Both the position numbers and the translations under genes were made by a program. This document shows positions 927 through 49,613 of a DNA stretch of 64,000 bases, one piece after another. Every line of letters starts with the position of its first letter. The first letter of the stretch is position 1. The notes below the pieces were generated by a model, which saw nothing but the letters and a program-made list of their open reading frames with translations, had not been told where the DNA came from and made no database searches. This stretch comes from Oscillospiraceae bacterium. GTDB lineage: Bacteria; Bacillota; Clostridia; Oscillospirales; Oscillospiraceae. The stretch lies in the NCBI GenBank assembly GCA_015068325.1, contig SVKQ01000012.1, positions 62,001 to 126,000 on the forward strand, read 5' to 3'.

Positions 927-929
927 GCT

Positions 930-21130: not shown

Positions 21131-22486
21131 TCAGCAGGTCTGCGCCATTACCGCGCGGATATCAGTGACGGATTCCAGCTTCATCAGCACGTCATACAGG
21201 GCCTCAGAGGGCGCCTGCCCCAGCGTGGGAACGGTACAGGTGAGGAACTTGGCCTTCAGATCCCCGTCGGAGATGGGATCAGTCAGGTGCCCCACGGGGA
21301 AGGCACGCTCCCGGGTAAAGGAACGACCGTCCTTGCAGGTGATGGTGATGAAGGCCGGTCCGGCACCGGCGTCGGAGGGCAGATCGTCATAAGCAGTCTC
21401 GTGATACATCACAGTGCGCTTGATGATGTTCTGGATCTCCGGCAGGCGGATGATCTCCGTGGTGTAGTTGTAGGCAGCGTTTTCCCGACCGCTCAGGTAC
21501 AGACCCACCTGGAAGCCCACGCTGAACTTGGCCTCCTCACCATCCCTGGGATCAGGGGTGATCAGTTCACGCAGCGGCGTGGCGCCGAGTCCGATACGGA
21601 TCGACTCGATTTCCTCCGCGGCGATCTGATGGGCCTGCAGCGTCTCCAGGATGGCGTCCAGCGGCCGGTGGCAGCTGCTGCAGGAGGGCCAGCGCTTCAG
21701 CGTAAAGCCCGGGGCACAGATGTCCCAGTCGCGGCCCATAGAGGCCAGGATGGTATGGAACGCGTCATCCTGCTCCCGCAGATCGGCGTACTCATAGAGG
21801 AAACCCTCACGGCCCTCCAGTGCCACGGGCGAGGACGTGAAGCCGGCCTGAGCCAGCTTGGCAGCCCGATAGCCGTCCTCCGCCACTTTGCCGATGTGGA
21901 CGGACTTGGTCAGCGTGCCGAAATTCTCCCGTATACCGGAGGCCATGGAAGCGGCGATGCCGATGGCGTGGCAGATCTGTTCCCGGTCCAGCTCCAACAG
22001 GTAGGCACAGCCGGCGGCAGCGCCCAGTCCGGCGGTGATACTGCTGCAGTGCCAGCCCTTTTCGTGGAGCTTGTGGGCGCAGATGCGGCCAACCTTGCAG
22101 GTGACCTCGGTGGCGATGAGAAAGCTCTCCAGCAATCTCTGCCCGGAGCAGCCGATCTCCTCGCCTACGGCCAGCAGAGCCGGCAGCACAGCCACGGTGG
22201 GATGACCCAGGTTGGAGGACGACGTGTCGTCCAACTCCAGCTCATGGCCGGAGATGCCGTTGACGAAAGCGGCGTCGCGGCCGCTGAGCCGCTGGCCGCT
22301 GCCCACCACGGTGCAGCATCCGGCCCCGTCGGCCACGGCCAAAGCCGCCTTGACGGCAAAGGTCTCGCTGCCGATGACCATGGCACCCACGGTATCCAGA
22401 ATGGACCGTTTGGCCAGGTACAGGGCCTGCTCTGTAAAGGGGGCGGGGCGGAGGACGAACTCCGAGATCATCTCTTGCAGTGTCAT
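21131..22486 (-). CDS. MmgE/PrpD-family protein (dehydratase or epimerase)
   Basis: A 451-residue protein of the family that includes 2-methylcitrate dehydratase (PrpD), cis-aconitate decarboxylase and the iminodisuccinate epimerase of Agrobacterium. Family segments seen include the helical start (AKRSILDTVGAMVIG), GHELELDDT, HPTVAVLPA and the second domain (SCHRPLDAI, KFSVGFQVG). No 2-methylcitrate genes are nearby. ATG 22486 lies 4 nt after the stop of the C-N lyase, whose last codons form its ribosome site. It is the third gene of the sigma-54 operon. In this context an epimerase acting on the lyase substrate is plausible, but unproven. Confidence 0.85.
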   Translation of the reverse strand: MTLQEMISEFVLRPAPFTEQALYLAKRSILDTVGAMVIGSETFAVKAALAVADGAGCCTVVGSGQRLSGRDAAFVNGISGHELELDDTSSSNLGHPTVAVLPALLAVGEEIGCSGQRLLESFLIATEVTCKVGRICAHKLHEKGWHCSSITAGLGAAAGCAYLLELDREQICHAIGIAASMASGIRENFGTLTKSVHIGKVAEDGYRAAKLAQAGFTSSPVALEGREGFLYEYADLREQDDAFHTILASMGRDWDICAPGFTLKRWPSCSSCHRPLDAILETLQAHQIAAEEIESIRIGLGATPLRELITPDPRDGEEAKFSVGFQVGLYLSGRENAAYNYTTEIIRLPEIQNIIKRTVMYHETAYDDLPSDAGAGPAFITITCKDGRSFTRERAFPVGHLTDPISDGDLKAKFLTCTVPTLGQAPSEALYDVLMKLESVTDIRAVMAQTC

Positions 22487-22490
22487 TGCT

Positions 22491-23990
22491 TTATGCCTCC
22501 TCGGCAATACGCTTCGCCATGGCGAACAGCTCAGCCCTCTTAGCGGTTAGGAACGCCTTCTTGCTCTGCCAATCGGCCTCCAACTGCTCCAACAGAACAT
22601 AATCCTTGTCGATCATCTCCTGCACCCGCTCAGGGCTGGGCCCGCCGATGATGGTACGGCGACGCACGTTTTCCACCGGATCCAGCGCATGGCGGATCTC
22701 ATCCTCAGGCATGGCCAGATTGAGATCCAGCACCTCCTTGGCGGCGCGGGCCACCACAGCGGAATCCACGGCGCTGATGGGCAGCTTCTCGTCGTGGGAC
22801 ATCGTGACCACGCGGCCCACGATCTTCTTGGCGGCGGAGAAGGACAGCCCGTGGTGCTGCACCATGGCGTCGGCCAGGTCTGTCACAGTGGAGAAGCCCT
22901 CCGCCGTTACCTGCAGCGCGCGATCCTTGTCCACTTCCAGCGTGCGGACGATGCCCTCCAGCAGATAGGTGCTGTCGATCATGCGCTGCACGATCTCGTA
23001 GTACAGGCTCACCACAAAGCCCGGCTCGCGGCCGTTTCCTTGGGGATAGGCCTTCATGGCGGTGAACATGGTGTTCAGTGCGCCGTAGGTGAACTCGCCT
23101 GTGTAGCGCAGCGTCTCCAGCGCCACGGGATTGCGCTTCTGGGGCATGATGGTACTGTAAGAGCAGTACTGAATGGCCAGGCGGGAGATGCCCACCTCGT
23201 TGAGGTTCCACAGCAGCAAACTCTCCACCATGCGGCCGATGTTGCAGGCGTAGATGGCCATGGCGGCGGCTGGCTCATAGGCGAAGTCCACCGTTGCGCA
23301 GGCGTCCATGGAATTCTCCAAGATACCGTCGAAGGCCAGCAGCTCCGCCACTCGTTCCCGGTTTACCGGAAAGCTGGTGGTAGCGCAGGCGGCACCGCCC
23401 ATGGTGCTCAAATTCACGCGGGCATAGCTCTCCAGAATCCGCCGCAAGTCGCGCTCAAACATCTGGAAACAGCTGGTGTAGAAATGGCCCAGGGTGACGG
23501 GCTGTGCCTGCTGGGAGTGGTGAGTATAGGCGGGGATGACAGTGTCCTTGTGGGCTTCCGCCTGTACCAGCAGCGTGCGCAGCAGCAGCGTCATGGCTTC
23601 ACACAACTCCAGAATGGTGTCACGCACGTGACTTCTCTCAATGGTGGAATTCATGTCGTTGCGGGAGCGGCCGGTGTGGACACGGCCTCCCACGTCGATG
23701 CCCAGCTCATCAATGAGCCAGGCCTCGACGTTGGAATAGAGGTCGGTCAGGCCGGGACGGTAGGGGATCTTGTCCGGGCCCATCTCCTTCAGCCGGAACA
23801 GCGCTTTCAGAATGGCGGCGCCATCCTTTTCACTGATGATATTCTGCTCACAGAGCATGATCACGTGGGCGAAATGGTTCTCCAGCTGACTGTCGAAGGA
23901 CTGGATATCCTCGGCGATGGTGTCCCTGGCGTGGTTGTCCAGAATGACGGTATCCCGGCCTTCATATGCCTTGTAATAGTCCTTGTTCAA
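22491..23990 (-). CDS. Argininosuccinate-lyase-like C-N lyase
   Basis: A 499-residue member of the fumarase/aspartase superfamily, closest in layout to argininosuccinate lyase. Seen are HTGRSRND (105-112), YTHHSQQAQP (155-164; ASL usually YTHLQRAQP) and the signature loop IMPQKRNP (281-288). The usual Gly-Ser-Ser before that loop is Tyr-Ser-Thr (278-280). Superfamily members reversibly remove fumarate from N-substituted aspartates. The absence of argG or other arginine genes, and the neighbouring NhaC carrier, MmgE/PrpD protein and sigma-54 promoter, suggest a catabolic lyase similar to the EDDS or iminodisuccinate lyases. A true argininosuccinate lyase is not excluded. Confidence 0.85.
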   Translation of the reverse strand: MNKDYYKAYEGRDTVILDNHARDTIAEDIQSFDSQLENHFAHVIMLCEQNIISEKDGAAILKALFRLKEMGPDKIPYRPGLTDLYSNVEAWLIDELGIDVGGRVHTGRSRNDMNSTIERSHVRDTILELCEAMTLLLRTLLVQAEAHKDTVIPAYTHHSQQAQPVTLGHFYTSCFQMFERDLRRILESYARVNLSTMGGAACATTSFPVNRERVAELLAFDGILENSMDACATVDFAYEPAAAMAIYACNIGRMVESLLLWNLNEVGISRLAIQYCSYSTIMPQKRNPVALETLRYTGEFTYGALNTMFTAMKAYPQGNGREPGFVVSLYYEIVQRMIDSTYLLEGIVRTLEVDKDRALQVTAEGFSTVTDLADAMVQHHGLSFSAAKKIVGRVVTMSHDEKLPISAVDSAVVARAAKEVLDLNLAMPEDEIRHALDPVENVRRRTIIGGPSPERVQEMIDKDYVLLEQLEADWQSKKAFLTAKRAELFAMAKRIAEEA

Positions 23991-24008
23991 CGCGATACAC
24001 CTTCTCTG

Positions 24009-25526
24009 TCAGGCAATCTTCTTGCCAAAGAGCTTGGTGGCGCAGAAGAACAGAACGGCCATGACGACCAGGGCGATGAGCAGAGAGACAAGGGCACCCA
24101 GCTGGCCCACGCCGACGATCAGATAGGCAATGAAGCTGGAGATGGCGGCCAGCAGGGCATAGGGGATCTGGGTACGCACATGGTCAATGTGGTTGCAGCC
24201 GCCGGCCATGGAGGACATGACGGTGGTGTCGGAGATGGGAGCGCAGTGATCGCCGAACAGGGAGCCGGACAGCACCGCGGCGATGGTGATGGCCTCAGAA
24301 ACACCGAAGGAGTAGGCCATGTTGATGCCCAGCGGCAGCAGGATGGCCATGGTGCCCCAAGAGGTACCGGTCGCGAAGGAGATGACCGAGCCGATGAGGA
24401 ACAGCAGAGCGGGCACCAGAGCGGGGGACAGGAAGCCGATGGTGGAGTCCACCACGAACTGGGAGGTGCCGATCTGGGAGCAGACGCTGCCCACGCCCCA
24501 GGCGGCGATGATGATGGCCAGGATGCCGGCCATCTTCTTGACGCCGTTGACCCAGGTGTCCACGACCTCGGTGAATGTCATGACCTTCTTGACGATGACC
24601 ATGATGGCAATGCAGATGGTGGCCAGCAGGTAGCCGGAGGTCAGGGCAATACGGATCTTGGAGCCGGGCACGTTCTGGGTGGGGAAGCCCCAACCGATGA
24701 ACATGATGAATATGGTGGCGAACATGACGATCAGAGGCAGGATCATCATCCAGGCGTTGGACTTGTTGGCGTTCTCTACTTCAACGATGGCCTTGTCAGA
24801 CTCCAGCTCGATGGGGGTGGGGCCATTCTCCAGAGCGTACTGCTCTGCTTTGGCCATGGGGCCGAAATCACGCTTGCTGAACGCGATCAGGGGAATGAGC
24901 AGCAGGGCCAGCAGGGCGTAGAACTGATAGGGAACGGCGGACATGAACGCGGAGGCGTCACTGGTGTTGATGCCCAGGTTTTCGAACTCCGTGGCGATGA
25001 TGCCCATGATGTACACGCCCCAGCCGGTAACAGGGACCAGGATGCAGACGGGGGAAGAGGTGGAGTCCAGGATGTAGGACAGCTTGGCGCGGGAGATGCG
25101 CAGCCGGTCGAAGATGGGCCGGAAGATGGGGCCCAGGATCAGGCTGTTGCCGGAGTCGGAGAAGAAGATGGCCAGACCGCCCAGCCAGGCAACGCCCTGG
25201 GCAGCACTACGGCTGCTCACCTTGCGGGCGATAGCCGAGGCGAAGGCTTTGGCACCTCCCGAAGCCTCAATCAATGCCACGAAGCCTCCCACGAAGGACA
25301 TCATGATGATGGTCTGTGCGTTGGAGGAGCCGGTCAGGTCAACGAACAGATGCTCGCTGAACATGCCCTGCATGGCGGTCCAGGGATTCCAGTTGGCGAT
25401 GATCAGACAGCCTACATAGAGAGCGGTCATCAGAGAGATGATGACGTTCTTGGTCCAGAAGGCCAGAATGACCGCCAGCAGCGGGGGGATCAGCGAAAGG
25501 ATACCATAGGATACAGCTTCTTCCAT
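24009..25526 (-). CDS. NhaC-family Na+-coupled carrier
   Basis: A 505-residue membrane protein with about 12 hydrophobic segments. The family strings FFSDSGNSLILGPIFRP, SVISFATGTSWGTMAILLPLG and GDHCAPISDTTVMSS are clear. NhaC-family members exchange Na+ and H+, but several (for example MleN) move organic acids or amino acids in exchange with ions. As the first gene of a sigma-54 operon with two catabolic-looking enzymes, it is most likely the substrate importer; that is an inference. The C-N lyase begins 18 nt downstream. Confidence 0.9.
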   Translation of the reverse strand: MEEAVSYGILSLIPPLLAVILAFWTKNVIISLMTALYVGCLIIANWNPWTAMQGMFSEHLFVDLTGSSNAQTIIMMSFVGGFVALIEASGGAKAFASAIARKVSSRSAAQGVAWLGGLAIFFSDSGNSLILGPIFRPIFDRLRISRAKLSYILDSTSSPVCILVPVTGWGVYIMGIIATEFENLGINTSDASAFMSAVPYQFYALLALLLIPLIAFSKRDFGPMAKAEQYALENGPTPIELESDKAIVEVENANKSNAWMMILPLIVMFATIFIMFIGWGFPTQNVPGSKIRIALTSGYLLATICIAIMVIVKKVMTFTEVVDTWVNGVKKMAGILAIIIAAWGVGSVCSQIGTSQFVVDSTIGFLSPALVPALLFLIGSVISFATGTSWGTMAILLPLGINMAYSFGVSEAITIAAVLSGSLFGDHCAPISDTTVMSSMAGGCNHIDHVRTQIPYALLAAISSFIAYLIVGVGQLGALVSLLIALVVMAVLFFCATKLFGKKIA

Positions 25527-25599
25527 TGTGATTTTTCCTCCTCAATAGAGAATTTTGTTTGGCGGTAATGCCTCTCTCCGCCAACATCTATATTTATGA

Positions 25600-25615
25600 G
25601 CAATATCTGTGCCAA
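25600..25615 (-). promoter_or_regulatory. Sigma-54 (-24/-12) promoter of the nhaC-lyase-mmgE operon
   Basis: Read on the minus strand the site is TTGGCACAGATATTGC, which matches the consensus TTGGCACG-N4-TTGC with exact spacing. It lies 74 nt before the nhaC start. The neighbouring rpoN and activator genes support it. Confidence 0.92.
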
Positions 25616-25734
25616 CTCAAGAAAATGGGCGAAAAATGATGGAAAAGTTTTTTGTGAAAAATGCCAAGAGAATGAAAGACCCCGATGCTGCCGTACCCGG
25701 AGCCTTTTGCCGGACACGATTCAAGAAAACGGAG

Positions 25735-25774
25735 CCGGGCCCTTTGCGACGAATTTTCGTCGCAAAGGGCCCGG
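25735..25774 (-). terminator. Long hairpin, terminator of the activator gene
   Basis: Near-perfect hairpin of about 19 bp (CCGGGCCCTTTGCGACGAA and complement). On the minus strand it is followed by CTCCGTTTTCTT. It would end transcripts from the activator gene before the nhaC promoter. Confidence 0.7.
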
Positions 25775-25819
25775 TAAAAGCGCCTTTCAGGAGGGAAGTG
25801 TCAATATAGATAGGGAAGA

Positions 25820-25847
25820 ATGACGGAAATCGGTCATAAATGACGGA
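25820..25847. promoter_or_regulatory. Possible upstream activator-binding site
   Basis: Between the activator stop and the nhaC promoter are two copies of ATGACGGA (25820-25827 and 25840-25847). The first also pairs with GTCAT (25833-25837) as ATGAC-N8-GTCAT. This is 205-245 nt upstream of the -24/-12 site, a typical distance for sigma-54 enhancers. The rest of 25527-25847 holds only the promoter, the hairpin and the leader. Confidence 0.45.
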
Positions 25848-27260
25848 TTACCGTCTCTTAATGCCGTGCTTTTCCAGCTTATACTGGAGGCTGGTGCGAG
25901 GAATCTTCAGCCGTCTGGCGGCTTCCACGATCTTCCAGTTGCTGGCTCGCATGGCATCCAAGATCAGCCGCCGCTCGTAGGCCTCCATAGACTCATTGAG
26001 GGAGGGCGACAGCTGGTCGTATTTCTCCTTGGTGATCTCCGAGGGCTCCTCCGCCTCAAAGAGGTAGATGGGCAGCTTGTCCATACGGATGTCGGCACCG
26101 TCTTCGGTGATATTGACAGCGGATTCGATTACGTGTTCCAGTTCCCGGACATTGCCTTTCCAGGGACGCTCCATCAGCACCTCCAGTACCTCACTTGAGA
26201 TTCCGGCCACCTGCTTGCCCATCTCCCGGTTGTATTTGGCCAGAAAGGCCTCAGACAGGATGGGAATGTCGCTGAGCCGTTCCCGCAGAGGTGGGATATG
26301 GATGCTGATGGTGTTGAGGCGATAGAGGATATCCTCCCGCATCTGGCCGGAGTTGATCAGTTCCTGGATGGGACGGTTTACCGAGGCGATGATGCGCACA
26401 TCCACGGGGATGGGCTTGGAGGCTCCCAAAGGGGTGACTGCCTTTTCCTGCAGCACCCGCAGCAGCTTGGCCTGCAGCAGGAAGGGCATGGAGTTGATCT
26501 CGTCCAGATAGATGGTACCTCCGTTGGCCTCGGCAAAAAGACCCTTCTTGTTTTCTGCACCGGTGAAGGCGCCGCGCTGTGAGCCGAAGAGAAGCCCCTC
26601 CAGGATGCTCTCCGGCAGAGCAGCGCAGTTGACGGCGATGAAGGGTTTGCTTTTTCGGCTGCCGGCGTTATGGATGGCGGAGACCACCAGTTCCTTGCCG
26701 GTGCCGGTCTCGCCGTATACCAGCACAGAAGAACGGCTGTCGGCGATTTTTTCGATAGTACTTTTTAACTCCAGCATAGAGGGGTCCTGCGTAACGATGT
26801 CATCCAGCGTCCACCGGGCGCTGCTGGTGTTGGCGGCAGCCGGCCCCGGTCGGGCGACGCCCCGGGGCAGCTCGCGTCCCTCGATGTGTGTTACGTCTCG
26901 GCTGATTTCCAGCGCGCCGATGATCTTGCCGCGGCTGATGATGGGAAAAGTGATGTTGTTGGTGACGGACTTTTTGCCGGAGTGGTTGATGGTGACCTGC
27001 TCCTCCTCATAAATCAGGTCACCGCTGCTGAGTGCCTGTAGCAGGGAACTGTTTTTGTGGTTCAGGGTGGGGAAGGCCTCCAGCAGGTGCTTGCCCACGC
27101 ACCACTCATTGTCGATAGCGTTCTCTGTTTCGGAAAAGCGTGGGTTGAAGCGGGCCTTGCAGGTGATGCGGCCGGTGTTGTCCACCATGGTGACGGAGTC
27201 GATGTAGTTGAAGTTATCCAGCAGCCAGCGCAGACGCTCGTCGTTTCGCTTCATGTCCAT
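25848..27260 (-). CDS. PAS-AAA-Fis sigma-54 activator (RocR-like)
   Basis: A 470-residue enhancer-binding protein. An N-terminal PAS-like sensor occupies about residues 10-125. The AAA+ domain has Walker A GETGTGKE (183-190), the sigma-54 contact loop GAFTGA (230-235) and Walker B GGTIYLDE (247-254). A Fis-type helix-turn-helix closes the protein (about 440-470). There is no receiver domain, so it should sense a ligand directly, as RocR does in arginine catabolism. Starts at 27260 or 27254 share one ribosome site. It lies between two sigma-54 promoters that it probably controls, 40 nt after the proline-racemase-like gene, which may be in the same transcript. Confidence 0.94.
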   Translation of the reverse strand: MDMKRNDERLRWLLDNFNYIDSVTMVDNTGRITCKARFNPRFSETENAIDNEWCVGKHLLEAFPTLNHKNSSLLQALSSGDLIYEEEQVTINHSGKKSVTNNITFPIISRGKIIGALEISRDVTHIEGRELPRGVARPGPAAANTSSARWTLDDIVTQDPSMLELKSTIEKIADSRSSVLVYGETGTGKELVVSAIHNAGSRKSKPFIAVNCAALPESILEGLLFGSQRGAFTGAENKKGLFAEANGGTIYLDEINSMPFLLQAKLLRVLQEKAVTPLGASKPIPVDVRIIASVNRPIQELINSGQMREDILYRLNTISIHIPPLRERLSDIPILSEAFLAKYNREMGKQVAGISSEVLEVLMERPWKGNVRELEHVIESAVNITEDGADIRMDKLPIYLFEAEEPSEITKEKYDQLSPSLNESMEAYERRLILDAMRASNWKIVEAARRLKIPRTSLQYKLEKHGIKRR

Positions 27261-27300
27261 CCATTCCTTTCACAGTCTGCAGGAGGATCACAGCGGTAGA

Positions 27301-28275
27301 TCAATCCACATAGAACCCCTCGCGCAGATCGTCATTTTCCGCAAAAACGAATTTATGGAAGCCGGTGATGCGGGCCTGGCCGGTGATCTCAGTGATGTAC
27401 TCCGTGCGGCCGTTGCACTCCTCCACGCCCCGCACCGTGCCGATGAAGGGGGCGTCCACGATGCCCTCGTGTACGAAGGGCTGATCGATGGCCAGCTTGC
27501 CGTTGGCACACAGCCACGCCACCTTGGCGCTGGTGCCGGTGCCGCCGGGAGAGCGGTCGGGAGAGCCATAGCCGGAACTGTGCACCACGCGCAGATCTGC
27601 GTCCTTGGCCTTGGGTACATCATACCATTGAACCAGATTGACCGCAATGCCTTTTTCCGCGATGATCTGGCGGATGCGGGCGGAATAGTGCTTGATCCGC
27701 TCCAGATAGGACAGCTCCACCTTGATGCCGAACAGAGCTGCCGGCACGATGGCGAACACGTTGCCGCCGTAGGCCAGGTTCACAGGTACATCCTTCACCT
27801 CGTCCACGTCGATGCGCAGCTCGTTCTCGATCACATAGCTGTTCACGTTGCGCACAGTGGTGCTGTAGACATACTCATCCTTGAAGTTGTTCTTGATCCA
27901 CACGAGGCCGGCGGGCGTCTCAATGGCGTAGCGATCCCGGTGCGCCTTGGGCACCATGCCGATCTCCTGCAGGGCGGTGCCTACACCGATGGAGGCGTGG
28001 CCGCACATGTCCAGATACTGGACGTCGTCCATGTAAAAAATGCCGAAATCAGCCTCCGGCATGGTGGGCGGGACCACTGCGGCGCACAGCATGCCGGCGT
28101 GGCCCCGAGGCTCATAGGTCAGCCGGGTGCGGATATAGTCGTAGTGCTCCTTAAAAAAGTCGCGCTTTTCGCGAACGGAATTACCCTCCAGCTTCGGAAT
28201 ACCGCTGAGGATGATGCGGGTGGGTTCACCGCCGGTGTGGGTGTCGACAGTATCGATCATCTCCTGAAAACGCAT
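27301..28275 (-). CDS. Proline racemase-family protein lacking the second catalytic Cys
   Basis: A 324-residue protein of the proline racemase/hydroxyproline epimerase/trans-3-hydroxyproline dehydratase family. The first catalytic Cys is present (Cys91, in DMCGHASIG). The second site, DRSPCGTGT in racemases, reads DRSPGGTGT, so Gly244 replaces Cys. Dehydratases of the family have Thr at that place. A two-base racemase mechanism is therefore unlikely; a dehydratase, lyase or other one-base reaction is possible. It has its own sigma-54 promoter, 73 nt upstream, and is followed by the activator gene. Confidence 0.88.
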   Translation of the reverse strand: MRFQEMIDTVDTHTGGEPTRIILSGIPKLEGNSVREKRDFFKEHYDYIRTRLTYEPRGHAGMLCAAVVPPTMPEADFGIFYMDDVQYLDMCGHASIGVGTALQEIGMVPKAHRDRYAIETPAGLVWIKNNFKDEYVYSTTVRNVNSYVIENELRIDVDEVKDVPVNLAYGGNVFAIVPAALFGIKVELSYLERIKHYSARIRQIIAEKGIAVNLVQWYDVPKAKDADLRVVHSSGYGSPDRSPGGTGTSAKVAWLCANGKLAIDQPFVHEGIVDAPFIGTVRGVEECNGRTEYITEITGQARITGFHKFVFAENDDLREGFYVD

Positions 28276-28347
28276 GATTCTACCTCCATTTTTTCGAGTG
28301 TGATGTTAAAAATTACGCTAAGATCATTAAATCTGTTATTTTTATTA

Positions 28348-28363
28348 GCAAGAAATGTGCCAT
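28348..28363 (-). promoter_or_regulatory. Sigma-54 promoter of the proline-racemase-like gene
   Basis: On the minus strand the site reads ATGGCACATTTCTTGC, with the invariant GG and GC at -24 and -12 and correct spacing. It lies 73 nt before the start codon. It is divergent from the rpoN promoter. Confidence 0.9.
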
Positions 28364-28397
28364 AAGTCAAGTGCGGGAAAAGAGTGTGCAAAGAAAG

Positions 28398-28426
28398 TTG
28401 TCTGGAAACTACTGATGTGATATAAT
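28398..28426 (+). promoter_or_regulatory. Sigma-A promoter of rpoN
   Basis: -35 TTGTCT (28398-28403) and -10 TATAAT (28421-28426) with a 17-nt spacer, 20 nt before the rpoN start codon. Confidence 0.8.
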
Positions 28427-28446
28427 AACAATGTGGAGGTGAGTAT

Positions 28447-29787
28447 ATGGCGGAACTGCGGATGAAGCAGGAACTGCAGCAGAAGCTGTATCTGTCTCCA
28501 CGCATGGTGCAGAGCATGCGGATCCTGCAGATGAATGCACAGAGCCTGCAGGAATACCTGTTGGACTTGAGCCGGGAAAACCCCGCACTGGAGCAGGAGG
28601 AGTCGAACGTGCCGGAGGAACTGGTGGCGCTGCGCCATAAGGCTGCAGCCCAGCAGATGGGTGGCCGCCCTCTCGCACCGGATGACGACATGGCTGCCCG
28701 GGAGCCGGGCGTATGGGTGCAGGAGTCCCTGGCAGATTATCTGCGGCGACAGCTGGAGTGGCGCGGCCTGCCGGAGCCGCTGCGGCGGCTGTGCGGCTAT
28801 CTGGCCGAGCAACTACAGGAGAGTGGCTATCTGGCAGAAGAGGATCTGGAGGAGACAGTCCGCATGGGCGTGCCGGAGGAATTGTGCCGTCAGGCGGTAT
28901 CCGTGCTGCAGAGTCTGGATCCGGCCGGTGTGGCTGCCTCCGATCTGCGTACCTGCCTGCTGCTGCAGCTGGATCGCCTGCCGGGACAGCACCCAGTGGA
29001 GCGTGCCATCGCGACAGACTGCATGGAGTTGCTGGCCAAGCACCGCTATGCCGCTATCGCCCGGACGCTGGGCGTGTCACAGAAAACCGTGCAGGAGGCG
29101 GAGCGGACGCTGAAGGGGCTGGACCCCCGCCCAGGCGCCGCCTGGGTGCGGGACGAGGTGACGGAGTACATCTGCCCCGATCTGGTGATCGAACAACGGC
29201 CGGAGGGCCTTGCGCTGTGGCTGGACGAGCGGTATCTGCCCCGTGTATCGGTCAGCGATTATTATACCCGCCTGTGGCGGGAGACAGAGGACCCGGAGAC
29301 CAAAGCGTATTTGAAGAAAAAAATCGGTCAGGCCAACTGGGTGATCGACTGCCTGAACCGTCGTCAGGAGACGCTACGAGCCTGCGGCGAGGTGATCCTG
29401 GAGTTTCAGCAGGCGTATTTTTCCGGCCATACCGACCGGCTGCGGCCCATGACGCTGGAGGATGCAGCAGCGCAGATGGGGGTGCATCCCTCTACGGTGA
29501 GCCGCTGTATCCGGGACAAGTATCTGCAGAGTCCGCGGGGGCTGGTCCCGCTGCGGAGCCTGTTCTCCCAAGCAGTGGGTGGACAGGATGTATCCGCTCA
29601 GGCAATCCGCACGGAAATCGCCCGGCTGATCCGGGCGGAGGACGGCGCACACCCCTTCAGCGACCAGCAGCTGTGCCGCATGCTGCAGGAGAAGGGAATC
29701 ACGGTGGCACGCCGCACAGTGGCCAAATACCGGGAGATGTTGGGGATCCCTCCCTCCTCACGGCGGCGGACGCCAAATGGAATATGA
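28447..29787 (+). CDS. rpoN: RNA polymerase sigma-54 factor
   Basis: A 446-residue sigma-54. The Gln-rich N-terminal activator-contact region is clear (LRMKQELQQKLYLSPRMVQS), followed by the core-binding domain. The central helix-turn-helix reads VHPSTVSRCIRDKYLQSPRG, and the diagnostic RpoN box ARRTVAKYRE is at residues 421-430. It binds -24/-12 promoters and needs an AAA+ activator. It is transcribed divergently from the proline-racemase-like gene and lies within 5 kb of three matching promoters and one activator, which suggests a locally dedicated sigma-54 circuit. GGAGGTG precedes ATG 28447. Confidence 0.97.
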   Translation: MAELRMKQELQQKLYLSPRMVQSMRILQMNAQSLQEYLLDLSRENPALEQEESNVPEELVALRHKAAAQQMGGRPLAPDDDMAAREPGVWVQESLADYLRRQLEWRGLPEPLRRLCGYLAEQLQESGYLAEEDLEETVRMGVPEELCRQAVSVLQSLDPAGVAASDLRTCLLLQLDRLPGQHPVERAIATDCMELLAKHRYAAIARTLGVSQKTVQEAERTLKGLDPRPGAAWVRDEVTEYICPDLVIEQRPEGLALWLDERYLPRVSVSDYYTRLWRETEDPETKAYLKKKIGQANWVIDCLNRRQETLRACGEVILEFQQAYFSGHTDRLRPMTLEDAAAQMGVHPSTVSRCIRDKYLQSPRGLVPLRSLFSQAVGGQDVSAQAIRTEIARLIRAEDGAHPFSDQQLCRMLQEKGITVARRTVAKYREMLGIPPSSRRRTPNGI

Positions 29788-29822
29788 AAACACACACCAC
29801 GGCACGCGGTGTGTGTTTTTGT
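29787..29822. terminator. Bidirectional terminator
   Basis: Hairpin AAAACACACACC / GGTGTGTGTTTT with a 9-nt loop, ending in a T-run on the plus strand and A/T-rich on both. It separates rpoN from the convergent MATE gene. Confidence 0.85.
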
Positions 29823-29839
29823 TCGTCTGCGGACTGACA

Positions 29840-31207
29840 CTACTTCGTCTCATCTGTTAGGTTATGGAGCCATTTGCCGGAGCGGTAGCGCCAGTAGCCC
29901 AGAACGATCCGCGTTACCTGCTCGGTCTGTACCAATACATACAGCACCGGCAGGGAGGTGATGCCGAGCAAGTAGATGCCCCCAAAGGCCAGGGGGATGC
30001 CCAGTGACCAGACCAGACAGCTGTCCAGAAACATGAGGAATACCGAGTCACCTCCGGCCCGGAGCGCTCCCATCAGGATCACGTTGAATATGCGTGTGAC
30101 GATACGGATGGAAAAAAGACGAACCATAAGAACTGTCACAGGCCACAGAGACGGCGAGGAGAGGGAGAACAAGCTCACCGCAGGACGGGCAATGACCATC
30201 ATAACGCCGGTCAGCAGCAGACTGAACACGACGCCTATGGGGAAGAACCACCTGACGCTGCGGCGCGCCTCGTCGTATTCTTTCCGGCCCAGCAATTCAC
30301 CGGTGATCACCATGCAGGAGTTGTATATGCCCGGGTTGATGGCATAGGGGATCGTACTGATGGCAAAGGCCACCTTATAGGCCTCCAGCATGTCCATGCC
30401 CAGTGTGCCGTAAGCTTTGATGTAGAAGGTATCGCCCAGGCCGAACAAAATCTCGTTGGCGGCCAGGGGCGCCATACGGCGCAGGATAGGCCGAAGGAAG
30501 GCGCGTGGCCAGTCGGTGAGCTCCCGCACCGTGCCCAGAAAGATCTGACGGGTGCAAATGGCGTAAAGGATATGCACCAGCAGCCCCAGACCAATTGCGA
30601 TAGAGGTGGCAAGAGCGGCGCCGCGCACACCCAGGGCCGGCAGACCCATTTTACCGAAAATCAGCAGATAGTTGAGCCCGGCATTGATCACATTGACGCC
30701 GATGCCGATCATCATGGGTATCTTGGTGCGCTGAATACAGCGGTAGATAAACGTGAAAGCGGCAGTCAGAGACCGGAAGAAGAAGGCGTAGCTGCTGATG
30801 GACAGGTATTCCCACGCCTGCCGCAGCAGAGCCTCATCGCTGCTGTAGAACCGCAGCAGTCCGGTGCGGCCGATGTTGGCAATGAGGAAAAAGACGGCAC
30901 CGCCGATCAGGTTGACCAGCAAAAAGAGACCAAAGGCCCGCTTGAGATTTTTGCTGCTGCCCGCACCGTAGAACTGGGCGGCGTAGATGCTGATGGCGGA
31001 ATTGAAGCCGAAAGCCATGATGAACAGCAGATTGTCCAGCTGGGTAGCCACCGTGACGGCGCTGACACCGTTCACATAGCTGACCATCAGCGTATCCAGC
31101 AATCCCGCACCATAGTCCAGGATCTGCTGCAGGCAGATGGGAACGGCGACGCGCGCCACCTTCCGGTAAAAAGAAGCAGGTGCGATATATCGCTGCAACA
31201 TATCCAT
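29840..31207 (-). CDS. MATE-family transporter
   Basis: A 455-residue membrane protein with about 12 hydrophobic segments in two halves, typical of multidrug and toxin extrusion carriers driven by Na+ or H+. Family segments include YRKVARVAVPICLQQILDYG, FGFNSAISIYAAQFYGAG and ALGVRGAALATSIA. It begins 33 nt after the fumarase beta gene with an AAGGAGG site and no terminator between, so it is probably the last gene of the sigma-54-controlled fumarase transcript. Its cargo is unknown; export of a pathway product is one possibility. Confidence 0.9.
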   Translation of the reverse strand: MDMLQRYIAPASFYRKVARVAVPICLQQILDYGAGLLDTLMVSYVNGVSAVTVATQLDNLLFIMAFGFNSAISIYAAQFYGAGSSKNLKRAFGLFLLVNLIGGAVFFLIANIGRTGLLRFYSSDEALLRQAWEYLSISSYAFFFRSLTAAFTFIYRCIQRTKIPMMIGIGVNVINAGLNYLLIFGKMGLPALGVRGAALATSIAIGLGLLVHILYAICTRQIFLGTVRELTDWPRAFLRPILRRMAPLAANEILFGLGDTFYIKAYGTLGMDMLEAYKVAFAISTIPYAINPGIYNSCMVITGELLGRKEYDEARRSVRWFFPIGVVFSLLLTGVMMVIARPAVSLFSLSSPSLWPVTVLMVRLFSIRIVTRIFNVILMGALRAGGDSVFLMFLDSCLVWSLGIPLAFGGIYLLGITSLPVLYVLVQTEQVTRIVLGYWRYRSGKWLHNLTDETK

Positions 31208-31240
31208 ATCCTGTTAATGACGCCTCCTTGCTGCCGGCGG

Positions 31241-31759
31241 TCATACGATGGAGCGGCCGGTACTGTCGATGCCCACGATGGCATAGAAATCCCGCACCTC
31301 CAACCGGCATACGGCCTCGGTGCCCAGATCCTCATAACAGACGGGTTCTTTGGCGGTGATGGTGTCGGCGATCAGAGCGGCGGCGCCGCCGATGGCCAGG
31401 AAGTATACAGCCCTGTTGCGGACGATGGCATCCACTACCGGCTGGGACCGGCGGCCCTTGCCGATCATGCCCGCCATGCCGTTGTCCAGCAGCAGAGGGG
31501 TATAGGGATCCATGCGGTAGCTGCTGGTGGGGCCGGCGGGGCCGATGACCTGACCGGGACGGGCCGGGGCGGGACCCACATAGTAGATGACCTGGCCCCG
31601 CAGGTCAAAGGGCAGAGGATCGCCCCGCTCCAGGCACTCTGCCAGTCGCTTGTGAGCAGCGTCGCGGCCGGTATACAGGGAGCCGGAGAGCAGCACTTCG
31701 TCTCCGGCGCGCAGCTGCGCGACGTCCTCCGGACGCAGCGGAAGTTGCAGATGGATCAT
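31241..31759 (-). CDS. fumB: Fumarate hydratase class I, beta subunit
   Basis: C-terminal half of iron-sulfur fumarase (or of L(+)-tartrate dehydratase) as a separate 172-residue subunit. The signature stretch GPAGPTSSYRMD continues into PYTPLLLDNGMAGMIGKG. With the alpha subunit it interconverts fumarate and L-malate in the cytoplasm. It follows the alpha gene by 10 nt. Tartrate dehydratase is the main alternative, since sequence alone rarely separates the two. Confidence 0.9.
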   Translation of the reverse strand: MIHLQLPLRPEDVAQLRAGDEVLLSGSLYTGRDAAHKRLAECLERGDPLPFDLRGQVIYYVGPAPARPGQVIGPAGPTSSYRMDPYTPLLLDNGMAGMIGKGRRSQPVVDAIVRNRAVYFLAIGGAAALIADTITAKEPVCYEDLGTEAVCRLEVRDFYAIVGIDSTGRSIV

Positions 31760-31769
31760 GACACACCTC

Positions 31770-32621
31770 CTACAGGACCACCCGGCTGTGACGATAGGCG
31801 TGACAGCAGATGTTCACGGCCACCGGCAGGCCGGCGATATGTGTGGGGAAGGTCTCGATGTGTACGGCCAGCGCCGTGGTTTTGCCGCCCAGCCCTGCCG
31901 GACCGATATCCAGTCCGTTGGCGGCGGCGAGCAGTTCACGCTCCAGCGCGGCGTAGTCCGGATCCGGGTTGACCGTGCCCAGATCGCGCATCAGGGCGAA
32001 CTTGGCCAGCTGGGCACACTTTTCAAAGGTGCCGCCGATACCCACACCCACTACCATGGGAGGGCAGGGATTGGGACCGGCGCGGCGGATGGTGTCCAGC
32101 ACAAAGCGGCGTACGCCCTCTGCGCCGTCAGCCGGCTTCAGCATGGAGACGGCGCTCATGTTCTCACTGCCGAAGCCCTTGGGACTGAAGGTGATGGTCA
32201 GCCGGTCGCCATCCACCCACTCGTAGTAGATGATGGCAGGGCTGTTGTCGCCGGTGTTGACGCGGCGGAACACGGGGTCGGCCACCACCGATTTGCGAAG
32301 ATAGCCGTCCCGATAGCCATCGGTCATTCCCTGTTGTATGGCTTCCTCCAGTGAGCCGCCGGTAAACACCAGCTCGCTGCCCATCTGCACACGAAAGACC
32401 GCCATACCGGTGTCCTGGCACATGGGCACCTGACGTACCCGGGCCAGGGTGTCATTGTCCACCAGCTTGCCCAGAATGCTGCGCGCCAGCGGCCGTTCCT
32501 CACGGGTCTGACACTCTGCCAGACAGGCCAGCATGGCCTCGCCGATGTCGCAGTTGGCTTCGACCACCATTCGGGCTACGGCCTGCCGCACGGTATTGAT
32601 ATCCAGTTCCCGCATGGTCAT
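31770..32621 (-). CDS. fumA: Fumarate hydratase class I, alpha subunit
   Basis: The [4Fe-4S]-binding subunit, 283 residues. Cluster ligands fit Cys68 (PMCQDTG), Cys186 (PNPCPP) and Cys272 or Cys273 (NICCHAYRH); the oxygen-labile cluster fits an anaerobe. ATG 32621 is chosen because AAAGGGGTG lies just before it; the GTG two codons upstream is part of that ribosome site. A sigma-54 promoter lies about 80 nt upstream. Joint control with a fumarate-releasing C-N lyase suggests that it drains that lyase's product. Confidence 0.92.
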   Translation of the reverse strand: MTMRELDINTVRQAVARMVVEANCDIGEAMLACLAECQTREERPLARSILGKLVDNDTLARVRQVPMCQDTGMAVFRVQMGSELVFTGGSLEEAIQQGMTDGYRDGYLRKSVVADPVFRRVNTGDNSPAIIYYEWVDGDRLTITFSPKGFGSENMSAVSMLKPADGAEGVRRFVLDTIRRAGPNPCPPMVVGVGIGGTFEKCAQLAKFALMRDLGTVNPDPDYAALERELLAAANGLDIGPAGLGGKTTALAVHIETFPTHIAGLPVAVNICCHAYRHSRVVL

Positions 32622-32703
32622 TTTCACCCCTTTGCATTTTCTGCGGCGTCTCTACCGCCAAAAAGGGCTTGGGAGCCCCGGATGAATTCGAAAAAGACAA
32701 ATA

Positions 32704-32719
32704 GCAAGATCCGTGCCGA
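32704..32719 (-). promoter_or_regulatory. Sigma-54 promoter of the fumarase operon
   Basis: On the minus strand TCGGCACGGATCTTGC keeps GG at -24, GC at -12 and the exact spacing of the consensus. It lies about 83 nt before the fumA start. Confidence 0.85.
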
Positions 32720-32911: not shown

Positions 32912-34000
32912 ATGGCTTTTCAGTTGAGAACATATCATGAGCCGGACTTTTCCGCGGACCCGCTGCGCAATGCGCCGGATGCCGTGCTTTGTGAAGCCCC
33001 GGCCGACCGGGTGGCGCCGGAGAACTACCACGCCATGAGCATTTTCCCGGAGTACTTCAAGCTTGACGGCCGCTGGGTGCTGGCCGAGGAGAGCCGTATG
33101 GACTGCGTGCCCGTGTGGGAGGGGGAGTGCATCCACGTGCGGGAGTTTCGTCATCTGAAAAAGGGCGATCTGATCGTGACGGGCCGTACGGAGGATGGCT
33201 CGGAGGGCATCTATGTCCACGCCAACGGCTTCCGTGAGACGACAGGTGCCGGCGATGTGTTCGCCTTCCGCCAGGGCCGTTCCCGCGAGACGGCTTTCTC
33301 CCGGGACTACGACGAGTTGTACGAGTTGCTGAAGCACGAGCGGGATCACGGCAGGATCGTGTGGGTCATGGGTCCGGCCTTCGCGTTTGACTACGACGCC
33401 CGGGTGGCCTTTTCCAAGCTGATCGAAAACGGCTATGTCCACGCGGTGCTGGCGGGGAACGCCTTGGGCACCCACGACTTGGAGGCCGCCTATCTGCAGA
33501 CCGCTCTGGGCCAGGATATCTATACCCAGGAGAGTCGTCACAACGGCCACTACAACCACCTGGATACCCTGAACCGGGTGCGGCTGTACGGCAGCATCCC
33601 CGCCTTTATCGAGGGTGAGCATATCGACAACGGCATCATCTACAACTGCGAGAAGTACCACATCCCCTATGTGCTGGGCGGCTCTATCCGTGACGACGGG
33701 CCGCTGCCCTGCGTCTACGGCGACGTGTATGAGGCGCAGGACCGTATGCGCGACCAGGTGCGCGGCGCCACCACGGTGCTGAGCATGGCCACCATGCTCC
33801 ACTCCATCGCCGTGGGCAATATGACACCCTCCTTCCGGGTGATGCCGGACGGGACGGTGCGGCAGGTCTATTTCTACTGTGTGGATGTGGCCGAGTTCAC
33901 CGTCAACAAGCTCAGCGACCGGGGCAGTCTGTCTGCCAAGGGCATTGTCACCAACGTGCAGGACTTTATCGTGACGCTGTGCAAGGGCCTGGGCCTGTAA
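32912..34000 (+). CDS. LOR/SDH-domain protein (ornithine-cyclodeaminase-like, TIGR00300 type)
   Basis: A 362-residue soluble protein that resembles the LOR/SDH family, named after lysine-oxoglutarate reductase/saccharopine dehydrogenase. Archaeal members and the C-terminal half of cyanobacterial ArgZ/AgrE convert ornithine to proline. Recognisable parts are the N-terminal FPEYFKLDGRWVLAEESRMD, the NAD-binding region around VMGPAFAFDYDARVAF, and HAVLAGNALGTHDLEA and YVLGGSIRDDGPLP. It lacks an arginine dihydrolase domain and is somewhat shorter than archaeal forms. ATG 32912 fits GAGGAGG; an ATG 4 nt earlier is out of frame. It stands alone with its own promoter and terminator. Confidence 0.75.
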   Translation: MAFQLRTYHEPDFSADPLRNAPDAVLCEAPADRVAPENYHAMSIFPEYFKLDGRWVLAEESRMDCVPVWEGECIHVREFRHLKKGDLIVTGRTEDGSEGIYVHANGFRETTGAGDVFAFRQGRSRETAFSRDYDELYELLKHERDHGRIVWVMGPAFAFDYDARVAFSKLIENGYVHAVLAGNALGTHDLEAAYLQTALGQDIYTQESRHNGHYNHLDTLNRVRLYGSIPAFIEGEHIDNGIIYNCEKYHIPYVLGGSIRDDGPLPCVYGDVYEAQDRMRDQVRGATTVLSMATMLHSIAVGNMTPSFRVMPDGTVRQVYFYCVDVAEFTVNKLSDRGSLSAKGIVTNVQDFIVTLCKGLGL

Positions 34001-34015
34001 AAGAGAAAAACGGGA

Positions 34016-34053
34016 CAGACCGCCGATCCGTAGGGATCGGCGGTCTGTTGCTT
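34016..34053. terminator. Terminator between LOR/SDH and larE
   Basis: Perfect 14-bp hairpin (CAGACCGCCGATCC and complement) followed by TTGCTTT. Confidence 0.85.
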
Positions 34054-34070
34054 TGAGCAGGTGAGGGGGC

Positions 34071-34895
34071 TTACGCGTCTGCGCCGGCTTGAAGATCCAG
34101 CGTGCGGTTCATGCTGCCCATCCGGTAGCCGCCCAGATCCAACGTGACGTAGAGAAAACCCAACGCGCGCAGATCCCGGTCCAGCTCCGCCGCCGCGGCG
34201 ATGAGGCGGGGAAACTCCTCCGGCAAAACCTCAATGCGGGCGATGTTGCCGTGGATGCGCACCCGCACTTGGCGAAAGCCCATATCCAGCAGCCGCTGCT
34301 CCGCCCGGTCCACCATAGAGAGCTTCTCCTCGCTGATGGTCTCACCGTAGACGAAGCGGCTGGCCAGGCAAGCGAAGGAGGGCTTGTCCCAGGTGGGGAG
34401 GCCCATCTCCCTGGACAGCAGACGGATCTCATCCTTGGTCAGCTCCGCCTGCCGCAGCGGGCTCTCAATGCCCAGCTCCGCCACGGCCATCAGACCGGGG
34501 CGGTAGTCGCCGTTGTCGTCCATATTGGAGCCCTCGGCCACGTGGTCGATGCCGTGTGCGGCGGCGACGGCGAGGATTTTTGTGAACAGCTCACGCTTGC
34601 AGAGGTAGCAGCGGTTTTTCGGATTCTGGCGGAAACCGTCGATATCCAGCTCCTCAGAATCCACAATGACCTGTTCGATCCCCTCATCCACGCAGAAACG
34701 GGTGGCCTCATCCAGCTCCCGCCGGGGGAAAGAACAAGAGCGGGCGGTGATGGCGATGGCGCGGTCACCCAGCACGTTGTGGGCCACCTTCAGCAGAAAG
34801 GTAGAGTCCACGCCGGAGGAGAAGGCCACGGCCACACTGCCCAGCCGGCGCAGGCATTCCTCCAGATGTTGCTTTTTCTGATGTAACGTATCCAT
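34071..34895 (-). CDS. larE: Nickel-pincer cofactor sulfur transferase LarE
   Basis: ATP-dependent PP-loop enzyme (274 residues) that adds sulfur to the pyridinium dicarboxylate intermediate of the nickel-pincer nucleotide cofactor. The PP-loop is SSGVDS at residues 26-31. Three cysteines, Cys96 and Cys99 (RCYLC) and Cys176 (FACLASR), match the LarE class that can hold a [4Fe-4S] cluster, unlike the single-Cys sacrificial form. ATG 34895 has GGAGG 8 nt upstream. It lies 23 nt after larB on the same strand. Confidence 0.93.
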   Translation of the reverse strand: MDTLHQKKQHLEECLRRLGSVAVAFSSGVDSTFLLKVAHNVLGDRAIAITARSCSFPRRELDEATRFCVDEGIEQVIVDSEELDIDGFRQNPKNRCYLCKRELFTKILAVAAAHGIDHVAEGSNMDDNGDYRPGLMAVAELGIESPLRQAELTKDEIRLLSREMGLPTWDKPSFACLASRFVYGETISEEKLSMVDRAEQRLLDMGFRQVRVRIHGNIARIEVLPEEFPRLIAAAAELDRDLRALGFLYVTLDLGGYRMGSMNRTLDLQAGADA

Positions 34896-34918
34896 GGCAA
34901 TTCCTCCGGAATGCAATG

Positions 34919-35671: not shown

Positions 35672-35726
35672 GTGACACCTCCGGTTGTGTCTGGCGCGAA
35701 CAGAGCTCCGGTAAAAAGGAGAAAGA

Positions 35727-35753
35727 CGCGCCGGGTCTTCATAGCCCGGCGCG
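35727..35753 (-). terminator. Hairpin between cbiO and larB
   Basis: Arms CGCGCCGGG and CCCGGCGCG with a 9-nt loop. On the minus strand TCTTTCTCCTTTTT follows. It may end or attenuate the cbiMQO transcript before larB. Confidence 0.65.
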
Positions 35754-35840
35754 CTTTTGATGGCTGTTTTACCGTACGTCGGCCCTGTGGAAACCTCTCG
35801 TTTCACCATATCGCAAACGACCCGATTTGTCAACGGTGTC

Positions 35841-36566: not shown

Positions 36567-36571
36567 CGCCC

Positions 36572-37375: not shown

Positions 37376-37442
37376 GGCGGACACCTTTAAATGGCAGCAA
37401 GGAGCATCCGCGGATGCCCCTTGTGCGACAAAATCGCAGGTA

Positions 37443-38504: not shown

Positions 38505-38544
38505 AAAAAGCACCTCTTTCGTAAAGTGATGTGATACTGCCGTT

Positions 38545-38591
38545 ATTATAGCTTTCGACGCAGACGGCGTACAAGCCCCAGGGGGGGTTGT
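38545..38591 (-). promoter_or_regulatory. cbiMQO promoter with CsoR/RcnR-type operator
   Basis: On the minus strand: -35 TTGTAC (38574-38569), 18-nt spacer, -10 TATAAT (38550-38545). A 21-nt inverted repeat (38571-38591) overlaps the -35: ACAA and TTGT ends around C4 and G7 tracts, the pattern of CsoR/RcnR-family operators. The His-rich regulator at 39969 is the natural candidate to bind it. Confidence 0.75.
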
Positions 38592-38624
38592 TTTTTCGGG
38601 AAATTTTTGTTTGGCCCGATTTTA

Positions 38625-38653
38625 TTGACTTTACAGCCGCCCCAAACTATAAT
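38625..38653 (+). promoter_or_regulatory. Sigma-A promoter of larC
   Basis: -35 TTGACT (38625-38630) and -10 TATAAT (38648-38653) with a 17-nt spacer. It is divergent from the cbiM promoter; the operator lies 34 nt upstream of this -35. Confidence 0.85.
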
Positions 38654-49571: not shown

Positions 49572-49613
49572 GAATATGAATTATAGTAACTTGTTCAAAA
49601 AGGGGGCTACAGC

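Follow-up and report, generated by a model that had tools for sequence, protein, structure and literature searches.

A putative sigma-54 module with an argininosuccinate lyase-superfamily enzyme in an Oscillospiraceae genome

The locus and its relatives

The 64,000 nucleotides analyzed here (the window; GenBank assembly GCA_015068325.1, contig SVKQ01000012.1, positions 62,001 to 126,000) are a part of contig C11 of an Oscillospiraceae bacterium, whose genome (G000) is 1.96 Mb in size and 95% complete. Between positions 21131 and 32719 the window carries genes for an NhaC-family carrier, a lyase of the argininosuccinate lyase (ASL) superfamily and an MmgE/PrpD-family protein and, at higher positions, genes for a sigma-54 activator, a homologue of proline racemase, sigma-54 itself (rpoN), a MATE-family transporter and the two subunits of a class I fumarase (Table 1). 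With moderate confidence, we read this locus as a dedicated sigma-54 module for the catabolism of an N-(1,2-dicarboxyethyl) compound, which would be degraded by way of fumarate and malate to pyruvate. Every gene named in a first-pass annotation of this DNA was recovered in its place with clear Pfam or NCBIfam matches. The protein called there a PAS activator is indeed a sigma-54 activator, but its PAS domain was matched weakly, by PAS_4 at E 0.0017 and 19 bits, under the cut-off of 23.1.

The NhaC and lyase genes are 18 bp apart, and the MmgE/PrpD gene, which has a called start of TTG and an ATG 7 codons further in, overlaps the lyase gene. A terminator-like hairpin with an 18-pair stem lies between the activator gene and nhaC. 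Because the racemase-homologue gene ends only 40 bp upstream of the activator gene, its promoter may drive the activator as well. For the carrier, a PDB sequence search gave no match at E 0.001.

Orthologues of the lyase with 65-80% identity were found in four more genomes among 32 of the genus, and at E <= 1e-110 only one of 391 genomes sampled across the class, namely G000 itself, has an orthologue. A pattern scan that covered 84,980 species genomes, but was non-exhaustive and missed G007, gave eight loci with a lyase orthologue, all of them in metagenome-assembled genomes and three of them repeating genus members. Sheep duodenum, goat cecum, and horse faeces are the named sources of these scan-derived loci, all of them guts or faeces of animals. 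Nine loci were read for synteny: G007, G028, G009, G023, L073, L074, L077, L079, and L080.

The order activator-NhaC-lyase is present in seven of the nine loci as well as in the window. A full MmgE/PrpD gene follows the lyase in five of these seven (G007, G028, G009, L077, and L080); in L074 only its start is found at the contig end, and in L079 the contig stops inside the lyase. Fumarase A and B genes are present in four loci (G007, G028, G023, and L077), and a malic enzyme gene is also present in four (G007, G028, G009, and L077), beside fumarase in all but G009; the G007 malic enzyme was checked by Pfam and the other three copies are 75-76% identical. The MATE gene, again in four loci, comes after fumarase in G028, G023, and L077, as it does in the window, and after malic enzyme in G009. 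The racemase homologue was found in G007, L074, L079, and L080, in addition to the window, which has every module gene except the malic enzyme that is linked in relatives. In G028, the nhaC, lyase, mmgE, malic enzyme, fumA, fumB and MATE genes are consecutive on one strand behind one sigma-54 site.

Table 1. Features of the locus, with positions in the window.
Feature	Position	Strand	Evidence or remark
MmgE/PrpD-family protein, predicted succinyl-part epimerase	21131..22507	-	Pfam MmgE_PrpD_N/C
ASL-superfamily lyase, predicted fumarate-releasing	22491..23990	-	Pfam Lyase_1 and ASL_C2
NhaC-family carrier, head of nhaC-lyase-mmgE operon	24009..25526	-	Pfam Na_H_antiporter, E 3.4e-56
Sigma-54 -24/-12 site of nhaC, TGGCACAGATATTGCT	25599..25614	-	0 mismatches
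Intrinsic-terminator-like hairpin 3' of activator gene	25735..25774	-	18-pair stem
Predicted activator binding site, TGACCGATTTCCGTCA	25821..25836	-	about 220 bp before nhaC -24 box
Second, similar site with one mismatch	25841..25856	-	overlaps 3' end of activator gene
Sigma-54 activator	25848..27260	-	Sigma54_activat, E 2e-62; AAA+; Fis-type HTH (HTH_8)
Proline-racemase-family protein, Cys/Gly active site	27301..28275	-	Pro_racemase, E 4.1e-82
Sigma-54 -24/-12 site of racemase-homologue (probably also activator) operon	28347..28362	-	0 mismatches
rpoN (sigma-54)	28447..29787	+	TIGR02395, 375 bits, cut-off 277
MATE-family transporter	29840..31207	-	Pfam MatE
Class I fumarase beta	31241..31759	-	Fumerase_C, E 2.7e-56; NF005310, 250 bits, cut-off 238
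Class I fumarase alpha	31770..32627	-	NF004885, 379 bits, cut-off 276
Sigma-54 -24/-12 site of fumarase-MATE operon, CGGCACGGATCTTGCT	32703..32718	-	1 mismatch

Sigma-54 promoters and the activator site

The features of a sigma-54 regulon are present at the locus, namely rpoN, an enhancer-binding protein (EBP) with GAFTGA in its translation, and -24/-12 sites at operon heads. When scored against the consensus TGGCACN5TTGCW, the three promoters reported in the first-pass annotation were all found: those of nhaC and of the racemase homologue without a mismatch and that of fumA (CGGCACN5TTGCT) with one, as is also the case for the malic enzyme-fumarase operon of G007. Before nhaC there is no mismatch in the window, G028, G009, L077, and L079, one in G007 and L080, and two in L074; that is, at most two in all eight loci showing the region and at most one in seven. 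Before the racemase homologue there is none in the window, L074, and L079 and one in G007 and L080 (at most one in 5/5). A single -24/-12 match means little, because TGGCACN5TTGCA with at most one mismatch gave 25 matches in the own genome and the reversed control already gave 16. Of 15 operon heads, 14 have a site with no more than one mismatch, versus one of 35 other gene starts (Fisher 2e-10), where heads were assigned by ourselves, partly after the sites had been seen, and the loci are related to one another. The sole other gene start having such a site is that of the L074 transporter gene, whose start was set only roughly. A third exact match in the window (58348-58363, + strand) lies inside a 268-aa open reading frame (ORF; 57869-58675, + strand) and was set aside as chance.

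A palindrome of one of two forms, with at most one mismatch, precedes nhaC in all eight loci, and this is likely the binding site of the activator (upstream activator site, UAS). In the window and seven loci, 171,874 bases altogether, there are five copies of exact TGACN8GTCA, each of them before nhaC (one each in the window and G007, and three in L080). When one mismatch is allowed, there are 47 copies, 11 of which lie within 450 bp upstream of the nhaC sites in the eight loci, where about one is expected; for the other form, TGTCG-N6-CGACA, the same regions hold six of nine copies (0.2 expected). Throughout the own genome, the exact degenerate form of the UAS was found only at this locus, and the form with at most one mismatch gave 11 rows at 8 places versus 2 for the reversed control. 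Six of these places, all with one mismatch, are outside the locus; two of them were inspected by eye, and one (C15) lies in a stretch resembling leucine-rich repeats and the other (C6) in a terminator-like hairpin.

Among the four PF00158 matches of the own genome, a single one is a sigma-54 activator (213 bits); the other three, weak at 26-29 bits (Pfam cut-off 20.2), are a Mg-chelatase-type protein and two Clp-type ATPases and were rejected as sigma-54 activators. Because of the promoter type, and because this is the only sigma-54 activator found in a 95% complete genome, we infer that it controls all three promoters. No UAS was found at the L074 transporter promoter, and the malic-enzyme promoter of G007 has one poor match with one mismatch. 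The co-regulation of the three operons claimed in the first-pass annotation is supported by shared promoter-like sites and synteny, but a convincing activator site was found only at nhaC.

A full rpoN match was obtained in all five carriers of the lyase orthologue versus five of 27 other genomes of the genus (Fisher p 0.00125, relatedness being ignored); weak partial matches in G021 and G026 were left uncounted. Apart from the window, L077 is the only one of the loci read in which rpoN adjoins the module. An extended -10 sigma-70-like site at 28398-28426, just 5' of rpoN, was noted in a scan that gave five such sites versus 4.2 in shuffled sequences, and gives no more than a hint of constitutive rpoN expression.

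The enzymes and the proposed route

The best PDB match of the lyase is ethylenediamine disuccinate (EDDS) lyase (6g3d/6rx8, 7.9e-71), followed by ASLs at 2.4e-56 and weaker. These PDB rows carry the name argininosuccinate lyase; 6g3h, belonging to the same sequence row, is identified as EDDS lyase (PMC12363623). In a tree of 47 rows, the nine lyase orthologues form a 100/100 clade with a stem of 1.74. The ArgH clade (23 rows, 100/99) holds 2e9f and three argG-adjacent lyases and excludes all nine, so that the grouping with biosynthetic ArgH that would have refuted the first-pass annotation was not found. In 9/9 orthologues the ArgH stretch YNKD(M/L)QEDK is swapped for a GNGREPG-containing one and NPD for NPV. 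NPD and YNKD(M/L)QEDK are together present in none of the orthologues versus 22 of 24 ArgH-like rows (L015 and L096 are the exceptions) and the 2e9f ASL. In the numbering of EDDS lyase, counted from the PDB-match alignment, R112, N113, T158, S280, M283, K286, and N288 are conserved and S281 is changed to Thr in all nine. Ser280 is the catalytic base of EDDS lyase. Residues of that enzyme near the substrate are R112, N113, Q159, N288, D290, and Y320 (PMC12363623).

PF00764 (argG) gave no match in the own genome, which is 95% complete. Within the search set of 40 genomes, which did not include G028, no argG over the cut-off was found in G007 (100% complete) or G009, only partial matches below it. 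The only other Lyase_1 gene of the own genome is purB (379 bits, cut-off 326), which by eye is beside a purA-like gene. Nearer paralogues of the lyase were obtained by a phylum search of 398 genomes, and 10 of the 30 returned loci were read with flanks: the ArgH Asp is present in none of the ten, KRNV as in the orthologues in seven, and MmgE/PrpD or NhaC genes are near none of them. One of the ten, a distant lyase of G772, is in the same stretch (L114 8120-14893) as malic enzyme and fumarase B/A genes, and catabolism with release of fumarate may extend more widely among these lyases. Among plasmid relatives, three of the 40 listed lyase matches (287 records) and one of the 20 listed MmgE/PrpD matches (484 records) were read; the three lyases have ABC transporter genes beside them and no annotated MmgE/PrpD within 8 kb.

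The best PDB match of the MmgE/PrpD protein is iminodisuccinate epimerase (2hp0, E 6.9e-66), and the next is B. subtilis 'IRG1' (1e-53), which probably has another function (PMC12290011). His99 and Tyr145 are the proposed bases of the epimerase (PMC7347537). Among six orthologues aligned, His99 is kept in all and Tyr145 is His in all; G-W-H, T-K, and the K before a P-S-C stretch are also kept. Known substrates of MmgE/PrpD enzymes have a four-carbon dicarboxylate in common (PMC12290011). The pairing of an MmgE/PrpD protein with a C-N lyase, on which the first-pass annotation had built its pathway, thus agrees with the best solved relatives of the two proteins.

For the racemase homologue, the closest solved relative is proline racemase (6.8e-66), and the NCBIfam proline racemase model gave 271 bits, under its cut-off of 556. 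The first Cys (D-M-C-G-H) is kept and the second is Gly (D-R-S-P-G-G-T-G) in 5/5 orthologues (window 27301-28275, L059, L074, L079, and L080), none of which has the two catalytic Cys of proline racemase. The superfamily is described as having the pairs Cys/Cys, Ser/Cys, Ser/Thr, and Cys/Thr as well as clusters that lack one Cys or both, and single-Cys dehydratases have Thr at the second Cys position (PMC4113996). Because of that Thr in the single-Cys dehydratases, a one-base elimination is suggested for the homologue, which judging from these residues is less likely to be a racemase than an eliminase or dehydratase. A new activity in the superfamily is possible; a part in the route, as an accessory enzyme with one catalytic Cys, is a guess.

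This homologue might instead belong to a separate pathway, of sugar acid or hydroxyproline type, that shares the activator, so that two regulons would lie side by side. We consider this a serious possibility, though somewhat short of an even one, and it is compatible with the other readings. The homologue is absent from G028, G009, and L077, which have activator, carrier, lyase, and MmgE/PrpD, and no genome-wide match at E <= 1e-60 was found in G028, G009, or G023. A GPH/MFS_2-type symporter gene is upstream of it in L079 (732-2138), L074 (4192-5583), and L080 (stretch 618-3251), and in the L080 stretch an MR_MLE (galactonate-dehydratase-like) gene, split in two ORFs, stands between the two, hinting at a second substrate. 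Its promoter has no UAS in any of the five loci. Against a separate arm, the homologue has a sigma-54 site and is directly upstream of the activator gene in all five loci having it, and among 119 relatives it was found (E <= 1e-60) only in G000 and G007, both carriers of the module.

The route that we favor, catabolism of an N-(1,2-dicarboxyethyl) compound, can be drawn as follows, its reactions, substrate class, and sensing being predicted from gene content, synteny, promoter- and UAS-like sites, the lyase clade, and residue changes. The PAS-type activator would sense the substrate and switch on nhaC-lyase-mmgE, perhaps being autoinduced through the racemase-homologue promoter upstream. The NhaC-type carrier would import the compound, an N-substituted aspartate of the iminodisuccinate/EDDS type, the MmgE/PrpD protein would invert the succinyl stereocentre, and the lyase would eliminate fumarate and release an amine or amino acid. 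Fumarase and malic enzyme would then convert fumarate through malate to pyruvate, which is supported by the malic enzyme adjoining fumarase in three loci. The synteny, the fumarase and malic enzyme in about half of the loci, and the two argG-less genomes (95-100% complete) are best accounted for by the breakdown of a substituted succinate that yields fumarate. That the bond cut is C-N is suggested by the best solved relative of the lyase and, by analogy with the breakdown of iminodisuccinate, by its occurrence together with an MmgE/PrpD protein of epimerase-like type. In the pathway of the first-pass annotation, the regulated module and the EDDS lyase and epimerase relatives hold, and fumarate as lyase product is backed by the linkage of fumarase and malic enzyme genes, but argininosuccinate as a substrate is disfavored by the absence of the ArgH motif.

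A number of observations weigh against this reading. Two of the nine loci, L073 and G023, have the lyase without activator, NhaC, or MmgE/PrpD, for which no match was found in these stretches even at E 1e-3. In L073 (12.4 kb stretch) the lyase has a cell-wall-binding protein on one side and a thioesterase on the other, and the stretch contains no further module gene; in G023 (14.2 kb stretch) an alpha/beta hydrolase precedes the lyase, and fumarase and MATE come after it. These exceptions speak against an obligate module, and because they break the synteny our confidence was lowered slightly; the co-occurrence that the first-pass annotation proposed to look for holds for activator, NhaC, and lyase in seven loci, mostly with MmgE/PrpD, but not for the surroundings of the lyase in these two. 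No UAS was found at any of the five racemase-homologue promoters or at the fumA promoter of the window. Nine of the ten paralogue loci read have neither fumarase nor malic enzyme nearby. The MmgE/PrpD protein is equally near to the epimerase (32.5%) and B. subtilis 'IRG1' (32.8%). Identity does not separate the lyase from ArgH either (33.0% to EDDS lyase, 32.2% to the T. thermophilus ASL, and 29.7-34.8% to 24 ArgH-like rows), it passes the NCBIfam argH model (TIGR00838, 345.1 bits, cut-off 279.5), and deep forks around EDDS lyase and the orthologue clade are weakly supported. Q159 and D290 of EDDS lyase are changed to His and Val in 9/9 orthologues. Finally, G023 (75% complete) has argG, and its sole lyase match is this orthologue. 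Orthologues without activator, NhaC, and MmgE/PrpD were located at L073 957-2447 and L063 4899-6353; a standalone lyase may work without an epimerase or with one encoded elsewhere.

The same module logic could serve a lyase that cuts C-S or C-O, in which case the substrate would be some other substituted succinate or an adduct of a thiol with succinate, for example S-(2-succino)cysteine. Conversion of N-acetyl-S-(2-succino)cysteine to fumarate and N-acetylcysteine by a lyase class I enzyme has been published (PMC9706529), fumarase and malic enzyme fit equally well, and the changes at Q159 and D290 set the lyase apart from EDDS lyase. The published route requires an acetyltransferase and a deacetylase, neither of which is among the module genes scanned, and the best solved relative of the lyase is a C-N lyase; we therefore think this improbable, though not negligible. 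Less probable still is a carbon-branched or hydroxylated di- or tricarboxylate as substrate, with MmgE/PrpD as dehydratase, isomerase, or decarboxylase, no amine involved, and fumarase and malic enzyme serving the C4 acid. In favor of it, 2-methylcitrate dehydratase, cis-aconitate decarboxylase, and methylsuccinate isomerase are all named as MmgE/PrpD family members in PMC12290011, the lyase weakly matches trans-aconitate decarboxylase in the PDB (E 8e-6), and the carrier has a weak DcuC match; the lyase is far nearer to C-N lyases (E 1e-70) than to trans-aconitate decarboxylase, and the MmgE/PrpD protein falls far under the cut-off of the PrpD equivalog model (50 of 950 bits). The passed argH model, the argG of G023, and a Thr-His pair kept as in ArgH, where EDDS lyase has Thr-Gln, would fit an argininosuccinate lyase, but salvage of imported argininosuccinate together with biosynthesis is very unlikely and biosynthetic ArgH was rejected, given the tree, the replaced motifs, the argG missing from G000 and not over cut-off in G007 or G009, and a separate ArgH-like gene in G028.

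All three enzymes depart from characterized relatives, each at a conserved position: the lyase by Asp290 to Val, the MmgE/PrpD protein by Tyr145 to His, and the racemase homologue by Cys to Gly. It is conceivable, though we hold it rather doubtful, that natural N-(1,2-dicarboxyethyl) amino acids are a regular nutrient in the animal gut, for which rare Clostridia keep a private sigma-54 system with three re-tooled enzymes, namely a lyase with its own amine pocket, a His-for-Tyr epimerase, and a Cys/Gly member of the racemase superfamily with an unassigned reaction. The locus points to a class of animal-gut nutrient that is not known to figure among listed gut substrates, with a predicted route from uptake to pyruvate. 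It also gives a warning that a gene passing the standard argH model can be present in an argG-less genome and probably do something else.

Neighboring DNA and comparison with known systems

At 32912-39951 of the window there are genes for a putative nickel-pincer-dependent ornithine cyclodeaminase (NF052526, 610 over 440 bits), LarE, LarB, and LarC, together with a CbiM/CbiQ/ABC metal uptake system, a nickel-pincer set that is complete in itself, metal uptake included. A link of the module to these genes was rejected, as queries of the cyclodeaminase, LarE, and LarB match 0/9 loci. Most ORFs at about 49257-62527 are poorer in third-position GC than those elsewhere in the window, and this stretch may be foreign or mobile DNA. 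Elsewhere in the genome, L132 6165-14755 (G000:C14, about 298160-306750) is a glycine/sarcosine-type selenoprotein reductase cluster, having GrdE/GrdG-like, GrdB-like, and SelB genes by Pfam; by eye, it also has thioredoxin-like and SelA-like genes. Stickland fermentation is thus probable in this organism. A link to D-proline reductase was also rejected: the one PF09338 match of the genome has its top score, 461 bits, against the model for sarcosine reductase (cut-off 780), PrdA giving a poor 64 bits.

The predicted route resembles one that soil bacteria use to degrade certain synthetic chelators. Agrobacterium tumefaciens BY6 reportedly degrades iminodisuccinate with an epimerase and a stereoselective C-N lyase. 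The present locus likewise pairs a relative of the MmgE/PrpD epimerase (2hp0 being the best match) with a predicted C-N lyase, the lyases being likened by description. It differs by the Tyr145 to His change, by the linked NhaC, sigma-54 activator, and fumarase and, in relatives, malic enzyme, and by its gut anaerobe host. With EDDS lyase of Chelativorans sp. BNC1 (PDB 6g3d-6g3i and 6rx8), its best solved relative, the lyase shares seven active-site residues, but identity is 33%, Q159 is His, D290 Val, and S281 Thr, and the Y320 stretch is replaced by the one with GNGREPG. Fumarate is also freed from a succinated compound, again by a lyase class I enzyme, in the yxe/2SL pathway of S-(2-succino) lyase (PMC9706529); by description, the window module is set apart from it in that its scanned genes contain no acetyltransferase or deacetylase. 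The racemase homologue keeps the first Cys of the proline racemase superfamily (ProR, 4HypE, and t3HypD), unlike the second, which is Gly here.

The combination, of which the first-pass annotation knew no description in gut anaerobes, was not found among the listed matches of open-access literature searches (closed-access papers and supplements were outside the search), and an operon of lyase, MmgE, and fumarase is in none of the 39 EBP groups of Table 1 in PMC6615313. The regulation resembles that of clostridial sigma-54 regulons for amino acids, such as those of PrdR and OrdR, in having a PAS-type one-component EBP with an adjacent target operon (PMC6615313). Regulons of this kind have sigma-54 promoters with UAS mostly 100-250 bp upstream, and the targets of OrdR include an nhaC (PMC6615313). 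The best NCBIfam model of the present activator is PrdR, at 341 bits and under the cut-off of 795. PrdR and 14 other groups have TGT-N10-12-ACA (PMC6615313, groups with distinct sites being outside this comparison), whereas the UAS here is TGAC-N8-GTCA or TGTCG-N6-CGACA. The clostridial set gains a sigma-54 regulon of very small size whose activator site can be read.

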